NCBI GenBank assembly: GCA_015228785.1
Contig: JADGCU010000015.1
Span: forward strand, 1 to 35,595
From: Candidatus Omnitrophota bacterium
GTDB lineage: Bacteria > Omnitrophota > Gorgyraeia > Zapsychrales > Fredricksoniimonadaceae
DNA length: 35,595 bases
Direction of reading: 5' to 3'
Below, one piece after another: positions 6,975 to 30,649 of the stretch (position 1 is its first letter; the number at the start of each line of letters is the position of its first letter). The translations under genes and the position numbers were made by a program. The notes below the pieces were generated by a model. The model was given only the letters and a program-made list of their open reading frames with translations. It had not been told where the DNA came from and did no database searches.

Positions 6975-9900
6975 TTAACTCTTACTTAGAATGGAAGAAA
7001 TATCCACTGGCATAATCTTCAGAATAATAGGCGAAAATCCATCTGTTTGAAGGGGATCCGCATTCTCCTGATTGCCTTTTACATTTAACCTGTTACCCTG
7101 TATCAACAAATCTAAATATTTGGGATTCAAATCAATACCGCCGACATCTTTGGTCATCGCAGGCTCCGACGACTTCCACTCTCCTGACCTAAAAGCATAC
7201 GGAACACCATTATGAACCCTCTGCTCAATCATCCTCGCCGCTACTTGCTCATCAGCTTTTGTTTTGATCGGTGAAAATTCACTCCGTGGAACAACGAGGT
7301 GTTCCGTGGTGAGCAGTCGTGACATATCCCCAATCAATCGTTCAACCTGAGCGGCGGCGCTCATAATAGGAATCTGGCGATCAGGATGAGTTAAATCTGT
7401 TCCCACCCGAACAGGTTTTACAGCAAAATTAAAACGCAGGGAAGAAACCTTCCTATTCACAAGCTCAAGCCTCTCCTGTTGACTGAGCAAGAAATATCGC
7501 TTCAAATTCTCCTGCAAACTTCCACCGCCAAGAAAGAATTCAAACAGGCCTTCCAGATTGAAATAGTTTTGATTAGTGCTGATATAGCGAATCTGCGAAA
7601 AATCAAAGCCCGCTGGAACATTATCCTTCTCAAGGATCTGCGGCTTAAACTGCCCATTACTCTCCAAATCAACATCAAATAAAAACCCGCCTTCCTGGCC
7701 CTCCTCTCTTTCAACCAATGTCGTCATCATTTGTTTCCCAGAACGATAAAAATGGCCCAGCCTCCGTTGATCAATTCGAAAACCCATGTCATCACCGTTA
7801 GGAATCACAAGGACCTTACACCCACGCTCGGCCAAATAAGCCAACCTGCCATTTAAAAACGGCTGAATCAACATTTCCAAATGCCCAACAGGTTTCGTGC
7901 TAATAACACCATCATCCGTTCTAAATGGATCGCCCACTGACCCATTCCTGGCCATGATCTCATCGACGGCCTTCTCCGGATCAAATCTGGTTCCCTGTGG
8001 GATCAACCCATATTCAATCTTCTGATTATGAACTTTCTCAAGTTCTTTAATGACCTTACCTGAAACCAAAATATCCTTTTTAGAAGGGTTAAAACGATAG
8101 ATCCCGTTCTGACTGTAAAAACTGACATCTCCCGAAGGAAGACCATAAAAACCGTTCTTCTTCCACAACTGTTCAATATGAGATACATTTTTATCATTTC
8201 CCATCACCAAGACGGGGATACCCCTTTGCTGGTCATCCCCCTGACATATCCCTTTAATATGCGCCACTCGGATTTCAGCAAGATTCGCCTCAACATCCTT
8301 TCCCTGAATGGTTAACCGCAAGGATGTACTATGAACTTTATCGCGTAATGTCGGATCATCTACTTCATACCCAACCAAGCGACCACCTTCCCCTCCAGCG
8401 CCAATAATAACCGCTATTTCACCTGCCTTTATTAATTCCTCCCCAACCCGATCATTTACCCTGTTCTCTTCCTTCTTTAATTGATCAATATGGGTCAAAC
8501 TCTCAGAAGGCGAACGTACTTGAGCGGCCTTTAACCGATTAGCCATTAGAGAAGGTTGTGCATCAATGATCTTCTGATGCTGATCAAACGAGACGGAAGG
8601 CGTGGCTGAAGGATCCTCAGTGCGATACGGAGGGAAATACTTTTTGATCGTCTCTAAAGCTTCTTCATTAGTTTTCTTATTTGTAAGACCAAAAAGCGTC
8701 TCTTCCTTGAGAACGCCATCCTTAAGCGACCTCACTCTCGGATTTGAAAATAAATATTTTATTTGCCCTGCCGAATACCCGCTTTCCAAAAGTTTCTGGC
8801 CAAATACTGTCGACGTATAAGGCTGTTCAAAAACAAGAACCTTTTCCTTTAAAGCCTCCAGCGGGCCCGCGCTCAAATGAACCAAATTCGTGACCCCTCT
8901 TAACCCCGGACGCTGTACCTCTGGTACCGGCAATATGCCTTCCACCGCATCCCGACGAAGAGTACCTACCGAATTTCGATCCGGCATATTCTCATCCCCC
9001 ACCAGGTCTTCCCTCAATGCCTTTAAAGAAACGCCTGAGCCGGCCTTAGGCCTGACCAATAGAGCAATCGTTCTTTTCTCTTCAGGACTATCAAAGGCCC
9101 TGAACAATCCCGGCACATAACCATTCACGATAATGACCGGCTGACCATTATTGACACGCGGATGAACAACAGGAAAAACACTGGTAGAAATAGCCACTTT
9201 ATTCACGCCATAAGGCAGCTTTTTTTCATACCAGTTGATCTTCTGAACCCCGCTCTCGACAATGATCATCTCCCGGGGAACGGCGATCTCGCCATTCTCC
9301 ACACTAACAGCTTCTTTCCCCTCAACAATGCGGACTTTTATGCCATAACGCCTTTCAAAATCCGGAATACTGATCGAAAATCTTGACGGCGCCCATAATT
9401 GATCCACGTCCTCATCGGTCAGTCCATATTTTGTGACCAACTCGATCGCTGGAATAATCGGAGTCTGGCTAAAAGGGGCCTTAAACGTTCTTTCAAAATC
9501 AGGAGTATCATAAATTTCCCTAATCCGTCTTATAGTCTTCGGATCTCTAATGCCGTTTTGATATCCCTTGTAAGCGTCGCTATAGAATTCCTGTAACTTA
9601 TCCGGATGTTTCTGATAATAGGCGCCTCCCAAGACCCGCAGGCCGGCCACATCGCATCCAAAACTCTCAATTCTGTCTAAAATCGCACCAATAAGAGGTA
9701 AATTAAACTTTCCATCAGACCCTACCGTTGTCGGAGGCTTGAGCAGCATCACAGCTTCCTGCTGTCCAGGATCAAGAAGCTCAGATGAATCCATGAGGAC
9801 AAGATCTTCACCATTCACAGTTTTCGAATCATCCGCCTCTTTAAGAAGACTCACAAGATCATCCCGACTCATGGAACGGGCTAAATTCTTAAGTCGCTTT

Positions 9901-12900
9901 GCTATAGAATTAAGCTGAGGGATATTGACGACCTTTATGTTAGTATCCACAAATTTCTTATACTGTTCCCTCGAAAGCCTTCCTTCGACCAACAAATATG
10001 CTGCGTGTGCGATCTCAGCAACACTTCCAATCTGAACCAATAGAGGATTTTGCGTTTCCGCTCCATTAACCGCCATTTGCATGATCTCGTTATCATCAAG
10101 CTCCGCGTCAAGTGCCAAGGATAAAAGGTACATAACAATAAGCCCTAGAATATTCTCACGATCAAAGTTCTCCGAACCTTCAGCATCCAGCTGTTGACCA
10201 ACCATGCTGGCCGCACGATTAAGTCCGCGCCAACGCGGATAATTCACCCTCCTAATAAGTTCTGCCATAGGGGCAAGCTTCTCTCCTGCGTTGAGAGGTG
10301 TGAGATCATAACGATTCAAAAGGTCTCCAAGTCCGATTTCTTTGAGCATCTCAACCCCATACGCTAACTCTGAGGAAATAAACTTGGATTTGACCCCCTC
10401 CGGTTCAAACATATACTCAGCTAATTCATCCCGCATAATCTCATACATATGGGCAATCCTGTCGCGATCCAACTCCTCGGTTCTGTGGACAATAGGAGGC
10501 AAATCTTTGGTATATTGTCCGCTGGCCCCTGTCTTACGATAAGGATAAAAATCATCCGCCTTTCCCAAAATCGTCGTTCCATACTGTGCCAAATTATTCC
10601 CCCACTTCGAACCAGGCATGGGAACCGCAACAGAAAGACCAATGTTGGTAGGATCGGTTTCTTGGACAAATTTAATCGTTTGTCTCACGTCCCATTCCGT
10701 CTCACCCGGAAGCCCAACCATAATAAATAGCCTCACCTCCTCAATGCCCGCCTCTTTGGCCATCTGGATCGCTTTCCGATTGGTAGCGATATCCGTTCCT
10801 TTGCCGATCACTGTATCCAATATCCGCTGAGAACCACTCTCAATACCAAAGGCTACACCAATGCACCCCGATCTCTTCATAGCGCGAAGTAATTCTGGAT
10901 TCATCGTATTTGTCCGAATAGAAGCCCGCCATCTAATATCCAGACCAGCATCCTGGATAGCCTTACAAAGATTCAACAGCCATTTTCGATCAGAGCTAAT
11001 ACCATCATCAATAAATGAAAAATTTCTCTGCCCTTGACGATAATAATTCCTGATCTCATCAACAATATTCTCCGCGCTTCTTTTTCTTAAGGACCTTCCA
11101 AAAACGCCCTTGGAACAGAAGGTACAGCCAAAAGGGCATCCTCTTGTTGTCAAAATAGGAACTGCTTTATTGGCAGGATTCACAATCCACACATCATAAC
11201 GCGCCATTTCCGCAGGCGGAATTGCAGGAAAAGGTAAAGCATCAATATCGGTCAGCACATCCGGATTTCCGGTATCAAATATTTCACCTGGATATTTAAT
11301 ACTGAATCCCTTAACAGCCAATATTTCGTCCTTTTCCCCTGACCGGTGAATAGCGTTAACAAATTGACAAAACGATCTTTCCCCTTCTTGACGGAAACTA
11401 ATATCAAAATTTGATTCCTTTAACATATTAAGATTATTAACAGCACTAGGGTGAGGGCCACCTGCCGCAATAATAACATTGGGGTCTAGTTCTCTGGCAA
11501 TATCTGCGGCCCGAAATGCATTGGAAGAAGATGCTGTCGTAAAAGATACCCCAACGATATCTGGCTGAAATTCTCTCATCACTTTCTTTAAATGAGCCTC
11601 TCTTTGCAACTTTGTTTTCTCAGGACCAACTCCCAGATCAAGAATCCTAACTTCCGCATCAGAATCTTTTTTGAGAGAAGATTTTAAATAATACAAACCC
11701 AAAGGGGGGTTAAAACTATTAAGACCCGTGATGTGCGACTGGACCAAAAGAACACGGGGCTTTCGACTTCCTTGAATAATAGAATCTGAAACTTTCGCAT
11801 AATTGGCCGGAGAGCCATGGATAACATCCGGCTCTTGAGCGCCTTCTCCCTTACGCACGGGACGCCACACATGAAGTCCTGGGCGTAGCTGTACAAATCC
11901 ATCATTCGAAGTGGGTTGCGCATTCATCGCAAACTCGTTAAGGATACGACTGACCTCATTTGCGGCCTCTACAGAGGTCATTCCCTCTCCATATTCTCGC
12001 CCGTTAAAACTGCCGCCCCTTGTATAACGCAATTCTTGCTTCAGCTTCTGTTGCTGCTGCGAATCAAGATCTTGTTCAAAACCTACAATAATGGATGTTT
12101 TCTTTTCCTGCGCATCCGTTGTAACAAAACAAGCTGCTAACGCTTCCGAAAAACTCAACCCCAAAATTAATCTTTCAATGATCTGACCAGACGGCGATAG
12201 CCTTACGCTCTCAGAAACAGAATAAATCGTATTGCCATCATCATCCGTGCTCTTGCGAATAACCCCGGCATCGCTTCTCTCAAGCTGTCTAATAACGGCC
12301 AACAACGCATCAGGCGCCGAAACATCAGCGGACAACGACTTAAACTCCGGCTCAGCGCCCAACCCGTTCTCATTCAAAGTCTCTCGCCATCCCTCCGTAC
12401 TTCTTAATGGAACATTAAATACCTGAGCAACTATTGTCTTTCCGGTAACCGCCTCACCGGCACCTATCATCATTGCTTTTTCTGAAACACGACGTCCCTT
12501 CACAATATCGGGATTATAATCATATCCTCCTGAAAAATACTTTCGGGGAACAACCTCTTTCGAATTATCATCGTACTCTTCTTTGATAAAATTAAAGACT
12601 CCTACCTTAACCGCCTTAAGATACTGCTGATAAATCTTTTCTTTTGCAGCCAAATCATCCGCCTTGATGCCATTAACCTTGTTTTTCTCAACATACGTTT
12701 TCCCTAATAATGTCTCACGCAAATTCCGCTTGAACCATGTAGCCAAAACCATGGAATAAAATATTTGCCTCAAATTGGCAAAGGACTCGCCTTCATTAAC
12801 CTCTTTTTCAATCTCAGGTAGAATTAAAGAACGCATGATCGATGAGGAAACATCGCTAATCTTCTCCGCGTCCCGAGCACCTTCCTGACCGTTCTCTTTC

Positions 12901-13565
12901 AAAGCAAGATAATCGCTCTCCAGCATAACTTTTAAATGTGTTGAAACAACAAACGCCACTTCCCCTCGAACAAAAATCTCAGCCTTACTAGGGACAATCC
13001 ACACCTTATGAAAGGTATCAACAGGGATTTCCGTGGTTCCGTAAAGCTTGCCAGCTTTTGCATAAAGTTCATTCCAAAACCTACGGCCCAAATCCCTCTC
13101 GGGATACATTAAAGAAGAAACAAGCTGTTTAAGAATATAATCCTGGGCAAGCAGGTCTTGCCCCATTGTTGTCTGACCAAACTTCTCCGCGACCATCCTG
13201 TCTTTTTCATAGGGCGAAAGATTAACCCAAAGATCATTCTCGGGAGTAGTGAGACTAGCAAGAAAATACTTAATGAGCCGGGCGGCATCATCCTTTAAGC
13301 CCGCAGGGTCCGATGTACCATCACCAGTGTCCAGAATAAAGTCCATCCGAAACGGATTCTTCGTATCAATCTTAATCCCTTTAAGAAGAAGCGGCGCAAC
13401 GCTCGGACTTAGTAACACCATGGTCCCAGGAACAGGCAGAACAACACTGCCTCCTGAAAAACTGCCAGCAGACGCAAGTTGGGCATAGGAAGACGGAACG
13501 CTTGAGCACACGAATGCCACAAGCGTCACGAAAGAAATAAGCCTATGAATTGTTTCTTTGAACAT
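6975..13565 (-). CDS. giant multidomain protein: signal peptide + conserved N-terminal module + B12-binding/radical SAM + NDK-like domain (split) + UDP-sugar pyrophosphorylase-like domain + C-terminal tail
   Basis: Single uninterrupted 2196-aa ORF; MFKETIHRLISFVTLVAFVCSSVPSSYAQ signal peptide; CPFGCTFC (codons 11115..11138); NDK-like QEAVMLLKP...NSVGTLRRD...NLVHLSAGP; UDPGP-like VIIGAGGEGGRLVG...PVLVMGNDKNVSHIEQL...KPVGHLEML...VLVIPNGDDMGFRID. Confidence 0.9.
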   Translation of the reverse strand: MFKETIHRLISFVTLVAFVCSSVPSSYAQLASAGSFSGGSVVLPVPGTMVLLSPSVAPLLLKGIKIDTKNPFRMDFILDTGDGTSDPAGLKDDAARLIKYFLASLTTPENDLWVNLSPYEKDRMVAEKFGQTTMGQDLLAQDYILKQLVSSLMYPERDLGRRFWNELYAKAGKLYGTTEIPVDTFHKVWIVPSKAEIFVRGEVAFVVSTHLKVMLESDYLALKENGQEGARDAEKISDVSSSIMRSLILPEIEKEVNEGESFANLRQIFYSMVLATWFKRNLRETLLGKTYVEKNKVNGIKADDLAAKEKIYQQYLKAVKVGVFNFIKEEYDDNSKEVVPRKYFSGGYDYNPDIVKGRRVSEKAMMIGAGEAVTGKTIVAQVFNVPLRSTEGWRETLNENGLGAEPEFKSLSADVSAPDALLAVIRQLERSDAGVIRKSTDDDGNTIYSVSESVRLSPSGQIIERLILGLSFSEALAACFVTTDAQEKKTSIIVGFEQDLDSQQQQKLKQELRYTRGGSFNGREYGEGMTSVEAANEVSRILNEFAMNAQPTSNDGFVQLRPGLHVWRPVRKGEGAQEPDVIHGSPANYAKVSDSIIQGSRKPRVLLVQSHITGLNSFNPPLGLYYLKSSLKKDSDAEVRILDLGVGPEKTKLQREAHLKKVMREFQPDIVGVSFTTASSSNAFRAADIARELDPNVIIAAGGPHPSAVNNLNMLKESNFDISFRQEGERSFCQFVNAIHRSGEKDEILAVKGFSIKYPGEIFDTGNPDVLTDIDALPFPAIPPAEMARYDVWIVNPANKAVPILTTRGCPFGCTFCSKGVFGRSLRKRSAENIVDEIRNYYRQGQRNFSFIDDGISSDRKWLLNLCKAIQDAGLDIRWRASIRTNTMNPELLRAMKRSGCIGVAFGIESGSQRILDTVIGKGTDIATNRKAIQMAKEAGIEEVRLFIMVGLPGETEWDVRQTIKFVQETDPTNIGLSVAVPMPGSKWGNNLAQYGTTILGKADDFYPYRKTGASGQYTKDLPPIVHRTEELDRDRIAHMYEIMRDELAEYMFEPEGVKSKFISSELAYGVEMLKEIGLGDLLNRYDLTPLNAGEKLAPMAELIRRVNYPRWRGLNRAASMVGQQLDAEGSENFDRENILGLIVMYLLSLALDAELDDNEIMQMAVNGAETQNPLLVQIGSVAEIAHAAYLLVEGRLSREQYKKFVDTNIKVVNIPQLNSIAKRLKNLARSMSRDDLVSLLKEADDSKTVNGEDLVLMDSSELLDPGQQEAVMLLKPPTTVGSDGKFNLPLIGAILDRIESFGCDVAGLRVLGGAYYQKHPDKLQEFYSDAYKGYQNGIRDPKTIRRIREIYDTPDFERTFKAPFSQTPIIPAIELVTKYGLTDEDVDQLWAPSRFSISIPDFERRYGIKVRIVEGKEAVSVENGEIAVPREMIIVESGVQKINWYEKKLPYGVNKVAISTSVFPVVHPRVNNGQPVIIVNGYVPGLFRAFDSPEEKRTIALLVRPKAGSGVSLKALREDLVGDENMPDRNSVGTLRRDAVEGILPVPEVQRPGLRGVTNLVHLSAGPLEALKEKVLVFEQPYTSTVFGQKLLESGYSAGQIKYLFSNPRVRSLKDGVLKEETLFGLTNKKTNEEALETIKKYFPPYRTEDPSATPSVSFDQHQKIIDAQPSLMANRLKAAQVRSPSESLTHIDQLKKEENRVNDRVGEELIKAGEIAVIIGAGGEGGRLVGYEVDDPTLRDKVHSTSLRLTIQGKDVEANLAEIRVAHIKGICQGDDQQRGIPVLVMGNDKNVSHIEQLWKKNGFYGLPSGDVSFYSQNGIYRFNPSKKDILVSGKVIKELEKVHNQKIEYGLIPQGTRFDPEKAVDEIMARNGSVGDPFRTDDGVISTKPVGHLEMLIQPFLNGRLAYLAERGCKVLVIPNGDDMGFRIDQRRLGHFYRSGKQMMTTLVEREEGQEGGFLFDVDLESNGQFKPQILEKDNVPAGFDFSQIRYISTNQNYFNLEGLFEFFLGGGSLQENLKRYFLLSQQERLELVNRKVSSLRFNFAVKPVRVGTDLTHPDRQIPIMSAAAQVERLIGDMSRLLTTEHLVVPRSEFSPIKTKADEQVAARMIEQRVHNGVPYAFRSGEWKSSEPAMTKDVGGIDLNPKYLDLLIQGNRLNVKGNQENADPLQTDGFSPIILKIMPVDISSILSKS

Positions 13566-28654: not shown

Positions 28655-30649
28655 CTATGCCTTTCCAGACAATGGCAACGCGATGGTAAAAGTTGTTCCC
28701 TGACCAACTTTACTCACAACAGAAATCGTCCCACCATGTTTCTGAACAATATCATAACTAATGCTTAATCCCAAACCAGTCCCCTGTCCCACCTCTTTGG
28801 TACTAAAGAAAGGCTCAAATACTTTCTTCAGGTTCTGTTCCGGAATTCCAGTGCCTGTATCCTCAATATCCACCTTAACCATTCCCCCATCAAAATAAAT
28901 CCGTATACGAATTTCACCGTGCTTCTCAATAGCCTGAACAGCATTTAAAAGTATATTAATAAAGACCTGACCGATCTGTTGTTTATTACAGGACACCAAA
29001 GGCAAGTCCGAAGCGTATTCCTTCTTTAACACTGTTTTATATTTAATTTCATTATGAACAATCCCTAAAATACTATCCATGATCTGACAAATATCCTCAT
29101 CAGAATGAACAGCGCGCTCATCACGGGCAAATGTCTTTAAATCTCTAATAATACGCTGCATCCTTTCGAGCCCTTCCAAAGATTCCGTATAAATATTTTT
29201 GGCATCCTCCATAAGATAATCCATGTCATATTCCGCTGCCTTCGCATCAATATCCTGAAGAGCCTTACTCACCATATCCGGCGCTCCCTCTTCAAGAGCC
29301 ACAAATAACCCGCCATACAAAGACAAAATCTCTTTCAACTTATCCCAATATTCACGAAGAAGAACAATATTATTAGAAATAAACCCGAGAGGATTATTAA
29401 GTTCGTGCGCAACACCGGCTGCCAGCTGGCCAAGTGCAGCCAGCTTATCGCTTTGTAAAAGCTGATCCCGAACCGATTGAAGGCTATCATACGTCTGAGC
29501 AAGATCCATGACCATATTCTTTAACGCCGTCTCATTACGACGGAGTTCTGACTCGATCTTGTCCTTAGCTTTAATTTCTTCCTCGAGTCTTCTTTTTGAG
29601 AGCAACAGTCTGCGATTCAAGCGCAAGACATAAAACACTACTCCCAACGTCAAGATTAGGAAGGTCACAACACCAAGAATCCTCCATTGATAAAGTCGCA
29701 AGAACTCCTTCTCACTCATCTTGCCGTAATTACGGAATGACCCGTAACTGATTTCACGCAAACATGCGGCCACTGGCATATAACTCAAAGGAATTGTCCA
29801 TCCAGCACAATTCCCCATAACAGCAGCAAGATCATCTTCGGCCATTTCTAATAGCGCGATCAGAACCTCCTTGGAAAGCTTTTCAGTAATGCGGCCTGTC
29901 CGGGCCATAGGCCATTGAGGATAAAAACGCGTACTATATAATACGGAAGGGTTTTCCTGTCCCAACTCAGACACTGACGGATCCCGAATAACGTAAACAT
30001 CCTTCAAATCAATCTTACCTTTTGATGCCATTTGCTCCAGATCGCCAATCGCTACGGAACCAGCATCTACGCGGCCATTGATCACATCTTCCACCACCTG
30101 TTCGGGAGTCCCCACGAATCGCAAAGAACTAAAATCACGAAATGGCTGAATACCTCTATCTTTTAATTCCCGCCACACAGCAAGCCATGCCTCAAAAGAG
30201 TTCTCGTGGATTGTAGCAAATCTCTTACCCTTAAGATCGCTCCAGGAGCGAACTAGTTCATTATTTGTCCTCACAAAAATAACGCCGCCAGAAAGAGATG
30301 AACGCATTGAACCATAATAAACCTCCATGGTTGCAATACGGTCAATGCCAAACTTTTCATTCAAATCATAATACTGCGCAGGATTGGTTAAGACAAAATC
30401 AAGCTCATTGGCACGAACTGCTTTTTCAAGCTCGTAAAAATCCATGGGAATAACTTCAAAATCAGCATTCGGCACTCTATCTTTCAAATAATGTCTTAAG
30501 GGAACCCACTGTAATCGAGCCTGATCCAATGGTTTCAGCGACAAAATGCCAATACGATAAACAAACCGTGGCCCATCCTCAGCGTGTCCAGCAGGAAGCA
30601 GAACAACCAGGAAAAGACATAAGAATGAAATGACCTTATTTCTCATCAA
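28655..30649 (-). CDS. sensor histidine kinase with periplasmic PhnD-like substrate-binding domain
   Basis: 664 aa; signal peptide; YRIGILSLKPLDQARLQWVPLRHYLKDRVPNADFEVIPMDF...FVLTNPAQYYDL; TM IYQWRILGVVTFLILTLGVVFYVLRL; H-box AAGVAHELNNPLGF; HATPase DTGTGIPEQNLKKVFEPFFSTKEVGQGTGLGLSI. Confidence 0.93.
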   Translation of the reverse strand: MMRNKVISFLCLFLVVLLPAGHAEDGPRFVYRIGILSLKPLDQARLQWVPLRHYLKDRVPNADFEVIPMDFYELEKAVRANELDFVLTNPAQYYDLNEKFGIDRIATMEVYYGSMRSSLSGGVIFVRTNNELVRSWSDLKGKRFATIHENSFEAWLAVWRELKDRGIQPFRDFSSLRFVGTPEQVVEDVINGRVDAGSVAIGDLEQMASKGKIDLKDVYVIRDPSVSELGQENPSVLYSTRFYPQWPMARTGRITEKLSKEVLIALLEMAEDDLAAVMGNCAGWTIPLSYMPVAACLREISYGSFRNYGKMSEKEFLRLYQWRILGVVTFLILTLGVVFYVLRLNRRLLLSKRRLEEEIKAKDKIESELRRNETALKNMVMDLAQTYDSLQSVRDQLLQSDKLAALGQLAAGVAHELNNPLGFISNNIVLLREYWDKLKEILSLYGGLFVALEEGAPDMVSKALQDIDAKAAEYDMDYLMEDAKNIYTESLEGLERMQRIIRDLKTFARDERAVHSDEDICQIMDSILGIVHNEIKYKTVLKKEYASDLPLVSCNKQQIGQVFINILLNAVQAIEKHGEIRIRIYFDGGMVKVDIEDTGTGIPEQNLKKVFEPFFSTKEVGQGTGLGLSISYDIVQKHGGTISVVSKVGQGTTFTIALPLSGKA

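Follow-up and report, generated by a model that had tools for sequence, protein, structure and literature searches.

Nucleoside-diphosphate kinase (NDK) makes building blocks of RNA and DNA and is, to our knowledge, among the most uniform of enzyme families, with about 140 residues and nearly alike in all life. The protein domain described here shares with NDKs of the Pfam family PF00334, such as that of M. tuberculosis (PDB 1k44), both halves of the fold, the order of its elements, and the positions of the catalytic His, Asn, Arg, Lys, Ser and Glu. The family to which it belongs differs from them by 75–150 extra residues between helix A and the third strand, which replace the PFF hairpin, and by a C-terminal helical extension and an HLSAGP signature. 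Among the PDB sequence matches listed for the family profile, the best are a 195-residue NDK (1xqi), presumably from Pyrobaculum aerophilum, and the Borrelia NDK 4di6. The former also has extra residues at the insertion site (chain residues 56–118, between the two halves in the profile alignment), but they amount to about half the length of the family's insertion or less, and the profile search matched none of them to it. The housekeeping NDKs of Omnitrophota (L001 of the source genome, and relatives) share a non-glycine residue next to the catalytic His (H-[VC]-S) and the NVxH context of that His; unlike the new domain, they are of ordinary length, lack the insertion, and are encoded by a separate gene.

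We analyzed a 35,595-nucleotide stretch, hereafter the window, of a 2.02-Mb Omnitrophota draft genome that is 82% complete and encodes a single canonical housekeeping NDK elsewhere (G000:C39, 141.7 bits). The domain lies within a very long ORF with the following features, all on the minus strand.

6975–13565, minus strand: domain-bearing ORF, 2196 aa
12426–13565, minus strand: N-terminal module, residues 1–380, with a signal-peptide-like start; common to about 22 ORFs of the same genome
10614–11711, minus strand: B12-binding and radical SAM domain, residues 619–984 (Pfam; PF02310 7.7e-13, PF04055 3.8e-26)
9582–9770, minus strand: NDK-like N-terminal half, residues 1266–1328, comprising beta1 VMLLKPP with K1276, alpha1, beta2 and Y1328
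9075–9581, minus strand: inserted region, residues 1329–1497, in the place of the canonical helical hairpin with its PFF motif
9237–9374, minus strand: about 46 insertion residues unique to the window protein, approximately residues 1398–1443 (model pLDDT about 57–79; boundaries approximate)
9120–9125, minus strand: N1481–G1482 of a conserved VNGY/F motif inside the insertion
8811–9074, minus strand: NDK-like C-terminal half, residues 1498–1585, comprising beta3 RTIALLVRP, R1518, GDENMP, GTLR with R1537, NLVHLSAGP and E1574
8877–8879, minus strand: codon of His1563, the phosphohistidine position, invariant in 11 full-length rows of the core alignment
8625–8810, minus strand: C-terminal helical extension, residues 1586–1647, FGQKLLESGYSAGQIKYLFSNP...LFGLT; in most relatives, including the Parageobacillus protein
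7221–8588, minus strand: UDPGP-like (UTP-glucose-1-phosphate uridylyltransferase-like) domain, approximately residues 1660–2115 (PF01704 8.8e-5)
6978–7142, minus strand: C-terminal tail, GGIDLN...DGFSPIILKIMPV; the motif recurs at the ends of many paralogous ORFs

The ORF, the residues quoted in the original prediction, and the His1563 codon are all as given there. The radical SAM domain carries a CPFGCTFC motif (residues 810–817), and the B12-radical SAM region is BchE/HpnJ-like, with scores below the family cut-offs. A search of the C-terminal 574 residues gave PF01704 (UDPGP) 21.8 bits, short of the Pfam cut-off of 22. By blastp, window residues 1252–2115 match L032 (7.9e-114) and residues 1257–2121 match L033 (3.4e-72), such that the NDK-like and UDPGP-like domains are contiguous in three genomes (the window, L032 and L033); a radical SAM region stands upstream of the NDK-like domain in the window, L033, L035 and L081.

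The N-terminal module has no Pfam family match and recurs in about 22 ORFs of the 2-Mb source genome, which range from 591 to 3332 aa, with approximately 40–60% identity in the module (the roughly 21 others are in loci L123–L141). Most of these ORFs that are uncut by contig ends finish with a tail of the GGIDLN...GFIPVIINI type (window 6978–7142), and the cargo between module and tail varies, including methyltransferase, radical SAM, glycogen debranching, starch synthase and histidine kinase. These proteins combine a signal-peptide-like start with enzymes of cytosolic type. Across the phylum, the module is found in 6 of 58 sampled genomes, three of which have 13–28 matches.

Searched alone, the window sequence has no NDK match in Pfam, NCBIfam or PDB sequences; weak matches of the single-sequence searches to Fve and a PTPN4 PDZ domain were dismissed as chance-level. 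The profile search that had been proposed as a check therefore fails with the lone sequence and succeeds with a family profile. A first profile, built from the window and three Omnitrophota relatives and including no NDK, matched 97 PDB sequences; all 60 of the 60 listed are NDKs (best E 2e-6), and they align in two stretches, N-terminal then C-terminal, with a long unmatched middle. A 12-member profile likewise matched PDB NDKs in two stretches and reached a best E of 1e-10. Alignment with hhalign to Omnitrophota housekeeping NDKs gave E-values of 1.2e-7 to 8.1e-10, the latter from a profile-profile comparison with 13 such NDKs in which the C-terminal half aligned. PF00334 itself does not match the window, and the best family relative scores 25.8 bits against a curated cut-off of 27, which no tested member reaches. 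Because this cut-off is missed and two motif tests failed, we describe the domain as a variant that would work like an NDK and not as a canonical NDK.

The predicted structure points the same way. An AlphaFold (AF2) model of residues 1263–1647, built from six sequences (mean pLDDT 81.6, pTM 0.72), contains the NDK alpha/beta fold, and its best PDB matches in Foldseek are NDKs, with probability up to 1.00 and target TM (NDK length) up to 0.75. The Foldseek alignments span about 313 columns on 135-residue NDK chains, which corresponds to an NDK fold with a large insertion; weak E-values (0.04) are expected here, since most of the query has no counterpart and the match is diluted by the insertion. 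A second model, of the Anaerolineaceae protein described below, has a pLDDT of only 61.6 and was set aside as too weak. The prediction of an NDK-like domain with a large insertion and a retained catalytic His is thus borne out by family-profile searches, by profile-profile comparison, and by a predicted fold, both halves of which superpose on NDKs. The window domain very probably shares the ancestry and fold of NDK, and probably also the phosphotransfer chemistry.

Eight residues of the window domain (K1276, Y1328, R1518, R1537, N1560, H1563, S1565 and E1574) align with canonical phosphate-binding or catalytic positions, the roles of which in canonical NDKs we take to be established. They include the N-x-x-H-x-S motif with a Glu 11 residues on (N1560, H1563, S1565, E1574), and the phosphate-binding Lys, Tyr and two Arg (K1276, Y1328, R1518, R1537, assigned by alignment). 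From the superposition, we infer that H1563 and K1276 would share a common pocket. Identity among the relatives is only 21–43%; the Asn and His are invariant across 11 full-length alignment rows, and the Lys, Asn, His, Arg and Gly/Pro of the NDK C-terminal half vary little or not at all among relatives of three phyla. Some positions do vary: the more distant L035 lacks the His, the Tyr is missing from L081 and L033 and the Glu from the Parageobacillus protein, and the Thr of GATNP, retained by most relatives, is Glu in the window (GDENMP).

The replacement of the canonical HGSDS by HLSAGP had been read as a possible sign of changed substrate or activity. Relatives from three phyla have an H-[LVF]-S-[AP] sequence, either HLSAGP or one much like it, and the lineage's own housekeeping NDKs read HVSSD or HCSSS from the catalytic His on, so this inference is unsupported. 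Judged by the alignments, HLSAGP is a signature of the insertion-bearing NDK subfamily and not a decayed HGSDS. A better hint of altered substrate handling is the replacement of the base-stacking PFF hairpin.

That replacement is evident in the insertion, which is real but longer than the residues 1336–1469 first assigned to it, running from about 1329 to 1497. The strand QPVIIVNG (near 1477), with which the C-terminal half was originally held to begin, lies inside the insertion as a strand of its own; the true third core strand is RTIALLVRP at 1498–1506 (model strand 236–244). The PFF-bearing helical hairpin that directly precedes the third strand in canonical NDKs is absent from the window domain, and the insertion stands in its place. 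The spacing between Y1328 and the third core strand is 170 residues in the window, 114–131 in other Omnitrophota and 98–101 in stand-alone relatives, compared with 19–26 in canonical NDKs; the approximately 46 window-specific residues rest on one assembly. The insertion has a conserved motif of its own, VNG[YF], followed by HP in the stand-alone members, and is therefore a homologous, inherited part rather than a set of independent insertions.

Relatives within very long ORFs were found in six other genomes of the phylum (E < 1e-4), and one more turned up when the class was searched with a profile. Scanning genome contigs for a pattern based on the lone sequence recovered no relative; an alignment-based pattern was needed to find them. 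In giant Omnitrophota proteins, homologous insertions adjoin B12-radical SAM and UDPGP-like domains, and stand-alone relatives of about 330 aa occur in Chloroflexota and on a Parageobacillus plasmid. These include a 331-aa protein of an Anaerolineaceae MAG with an NVHLSAGP-type context (TNGVHLSAGPFEA) and a 334-aa protein, annotated as hypothetical, on a conjugative plasmid of Parageobacillus caldoxylosilyticus. The alignment shows the C-terminal extension (residues 1586–1647) to be part of the family architecture. Viral contigs, phage records and predicted viral structures yielded no family member, and the viral fold matches are ordinary NDKs. A patescibacterial match (L087) was rejected since the ORF in which it sits (211 aa) resembles an alpha/beta hydrolase, and low-scoring profile matches in ORFs of 167–189 aa resemble canonical NDKs and were not counted as members. 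Literature searches, with subscription journals mostly outside their scope, turned up no paper describing an NDK family that carries an insertion of this kind. We regard the group as a real NDK subfamily, missed by annotation, in which the central hairpin has been rebuilt.

We compared the occurrence of the variant and of canonical NDK in 350 genomes of the Chloroflexota, the phylum of the Anaerolineaceae MAG, for which completeness was not reported. Canonical NDK scores above the cut-off in 327 of the 350. Five genomes carry a family member; a canonical NDK above the cut-off is missing from all five of these, compared with 18 of 345 non-carriers (Fisher p 8e-7, uncorrected for kinship); the 20.6-bit NDK match in one carrier (G509) is its own variant. 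Three of the five share the gene order DUF488-like, NDK-like, SIS-like and represent one lineage, which leaves about three independent cases of complementarity. This pattern suggests a stand-alone form able to assume the housekeeping role; in cells that lack canonical Ndk, NDP kinase duty probably falls to the stand-alone members.

About 18 of the sampled Chloroflexota genomes have neither a canonical NDK above the cut-off nor the variant, and in roughly 20 the canonical match is only about 1e-15 to 1e-22, possibly reflecting fragments or another divergent form.

On balance, we favor the reading that residues from about 1266 to 1647 form a member of an unannotated NDK subfamily that would carry out phosphohistidine phosphotransfer with a rebuilt nucleotide-side wall, probably beside a sugar-nucleotidyltransferase-like domain in the window. 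An NTP held by K1276, Y1328, R1518, R1537 and N1560 would phosphorylate His1563, oriented by E1574, and the phosphate would then pass to a second substrate, most likely an NDP. As the insertion takes the place of the hairpin with the base-stacking Phe, nucleotide-side recognition, and possibly oligomerization, would be rebuilt while the catalytic side is kept. In the window protein a local role is the more likely one, given the housekeeping NDK elsewhere in the genome; the domain might, for example, regenerate UTP for the adjoining UDPGP-like domain. The UDPGP match lies just under the Pfam cut-off, so UTP supply is conjecture, as is the local NTP supply to a sugar-nucleotide step that we propose from the repeated pairing of NDK-type domains with a sugar-nucleotide-type domain, the giant ORF L148 described below included.

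A phosphotransferase with NDK chemistry could instead act on a non-nucleotide acceptor, such as a sugar- or cyclitol-phosphate, with the insertion as the new acceptor site. The loss of the base-binding hairpin and the adjoining sugar-related UDPGP-like domain are compatible with such an acceptor, as are the SIS-domain sugar isomerase gene next to the NDK-like gene in three Chloroflexota and, on the Parageobacillus plasmid, neighbors encoding inositol-phosphate synthase, a split DegT-type aminotransferase, SDR, a kinase and SurE (the aminotransferase and kinase named by eye). We nevertheless consider it unlikely, since the five of five Chloroflexota carriers without canonical NDK suggest ordinary NDP kinase duty there and the neighborhoods vary between lineages. 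That the domain of the giant Omnitrophota proteins is catalytically weak or dead, serving as a binding or structural module, seems to us quite improbable: N1560, H1563, S1565, R1537 and K1276 persist in the window and in most relatives even at identities of only 21–43%, although the His is lost in L035, the Tyr in L033 and L081, the Thr has become Glu in the window, and most of the hosts encode a canonical NDK separately. Chance resemblance, or an assembly artefact placing foreign sequence inside an NDK gene, would fit the failure of the lone sequence to match NDK in any library; homologous insertions in independent Omnitrophota and Chloroflexota genomes and a finished Bacillota plasmid, together with the profile and fold matches to NDK, make this explanation very improbable indeed.

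A broader account can be offered tentatively, at somewhat less than an even chance: an unrecognized branch of the NDK superfamily, its hairpin replaced by an insertion of about 75–150 residues, may have displaced canonical Ndk as the NDP kinase of some Chloroflexota and been recruited into giant multi-enzyme proteins of Omnitrophota beside radical SAM and sugar-nucleotidyltransferase-like domains. A subfamily with the phosphohistidine machinery but a rebuilt nucleotide-side wall would offer a natural way to learn what parts of NDK determine substrate and assembly, a task for which the stand-alone members of about 330 aa would be handy, and it would also account for the making of NTPs in some genomes seemingly without ndk.

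Other loci and neighbors show further features. In a different Omnitrophota genome, a second giant ORF (L148, G411:C163) has a signal-peptide-like start and an NDK domain of different build (53.6 bits); the segment after this domain contains HKHYHWQ and resembles a GalT/HIT enzyme. On the conjugative Parageobacillus plasmid (L088:194-13241, NZ_CP040554.1), the cluster looks aminocyclitol-like, several assignments having been made by eye; its genes encode inositol-phosphate synthase, methionine adenosyltransferase, a DegT-type aminotransferase in two ORFs, SDR, PqqD, HprK-like and APH-like proteins, the NDK variant, SurE and NUDIX, and an IS256 transposase lies inside it. Within the window, positions 28655–30649 on the minus strand encode a histidine kinase with a phosphonate-type periplasmic binding domain as its N-terminus.
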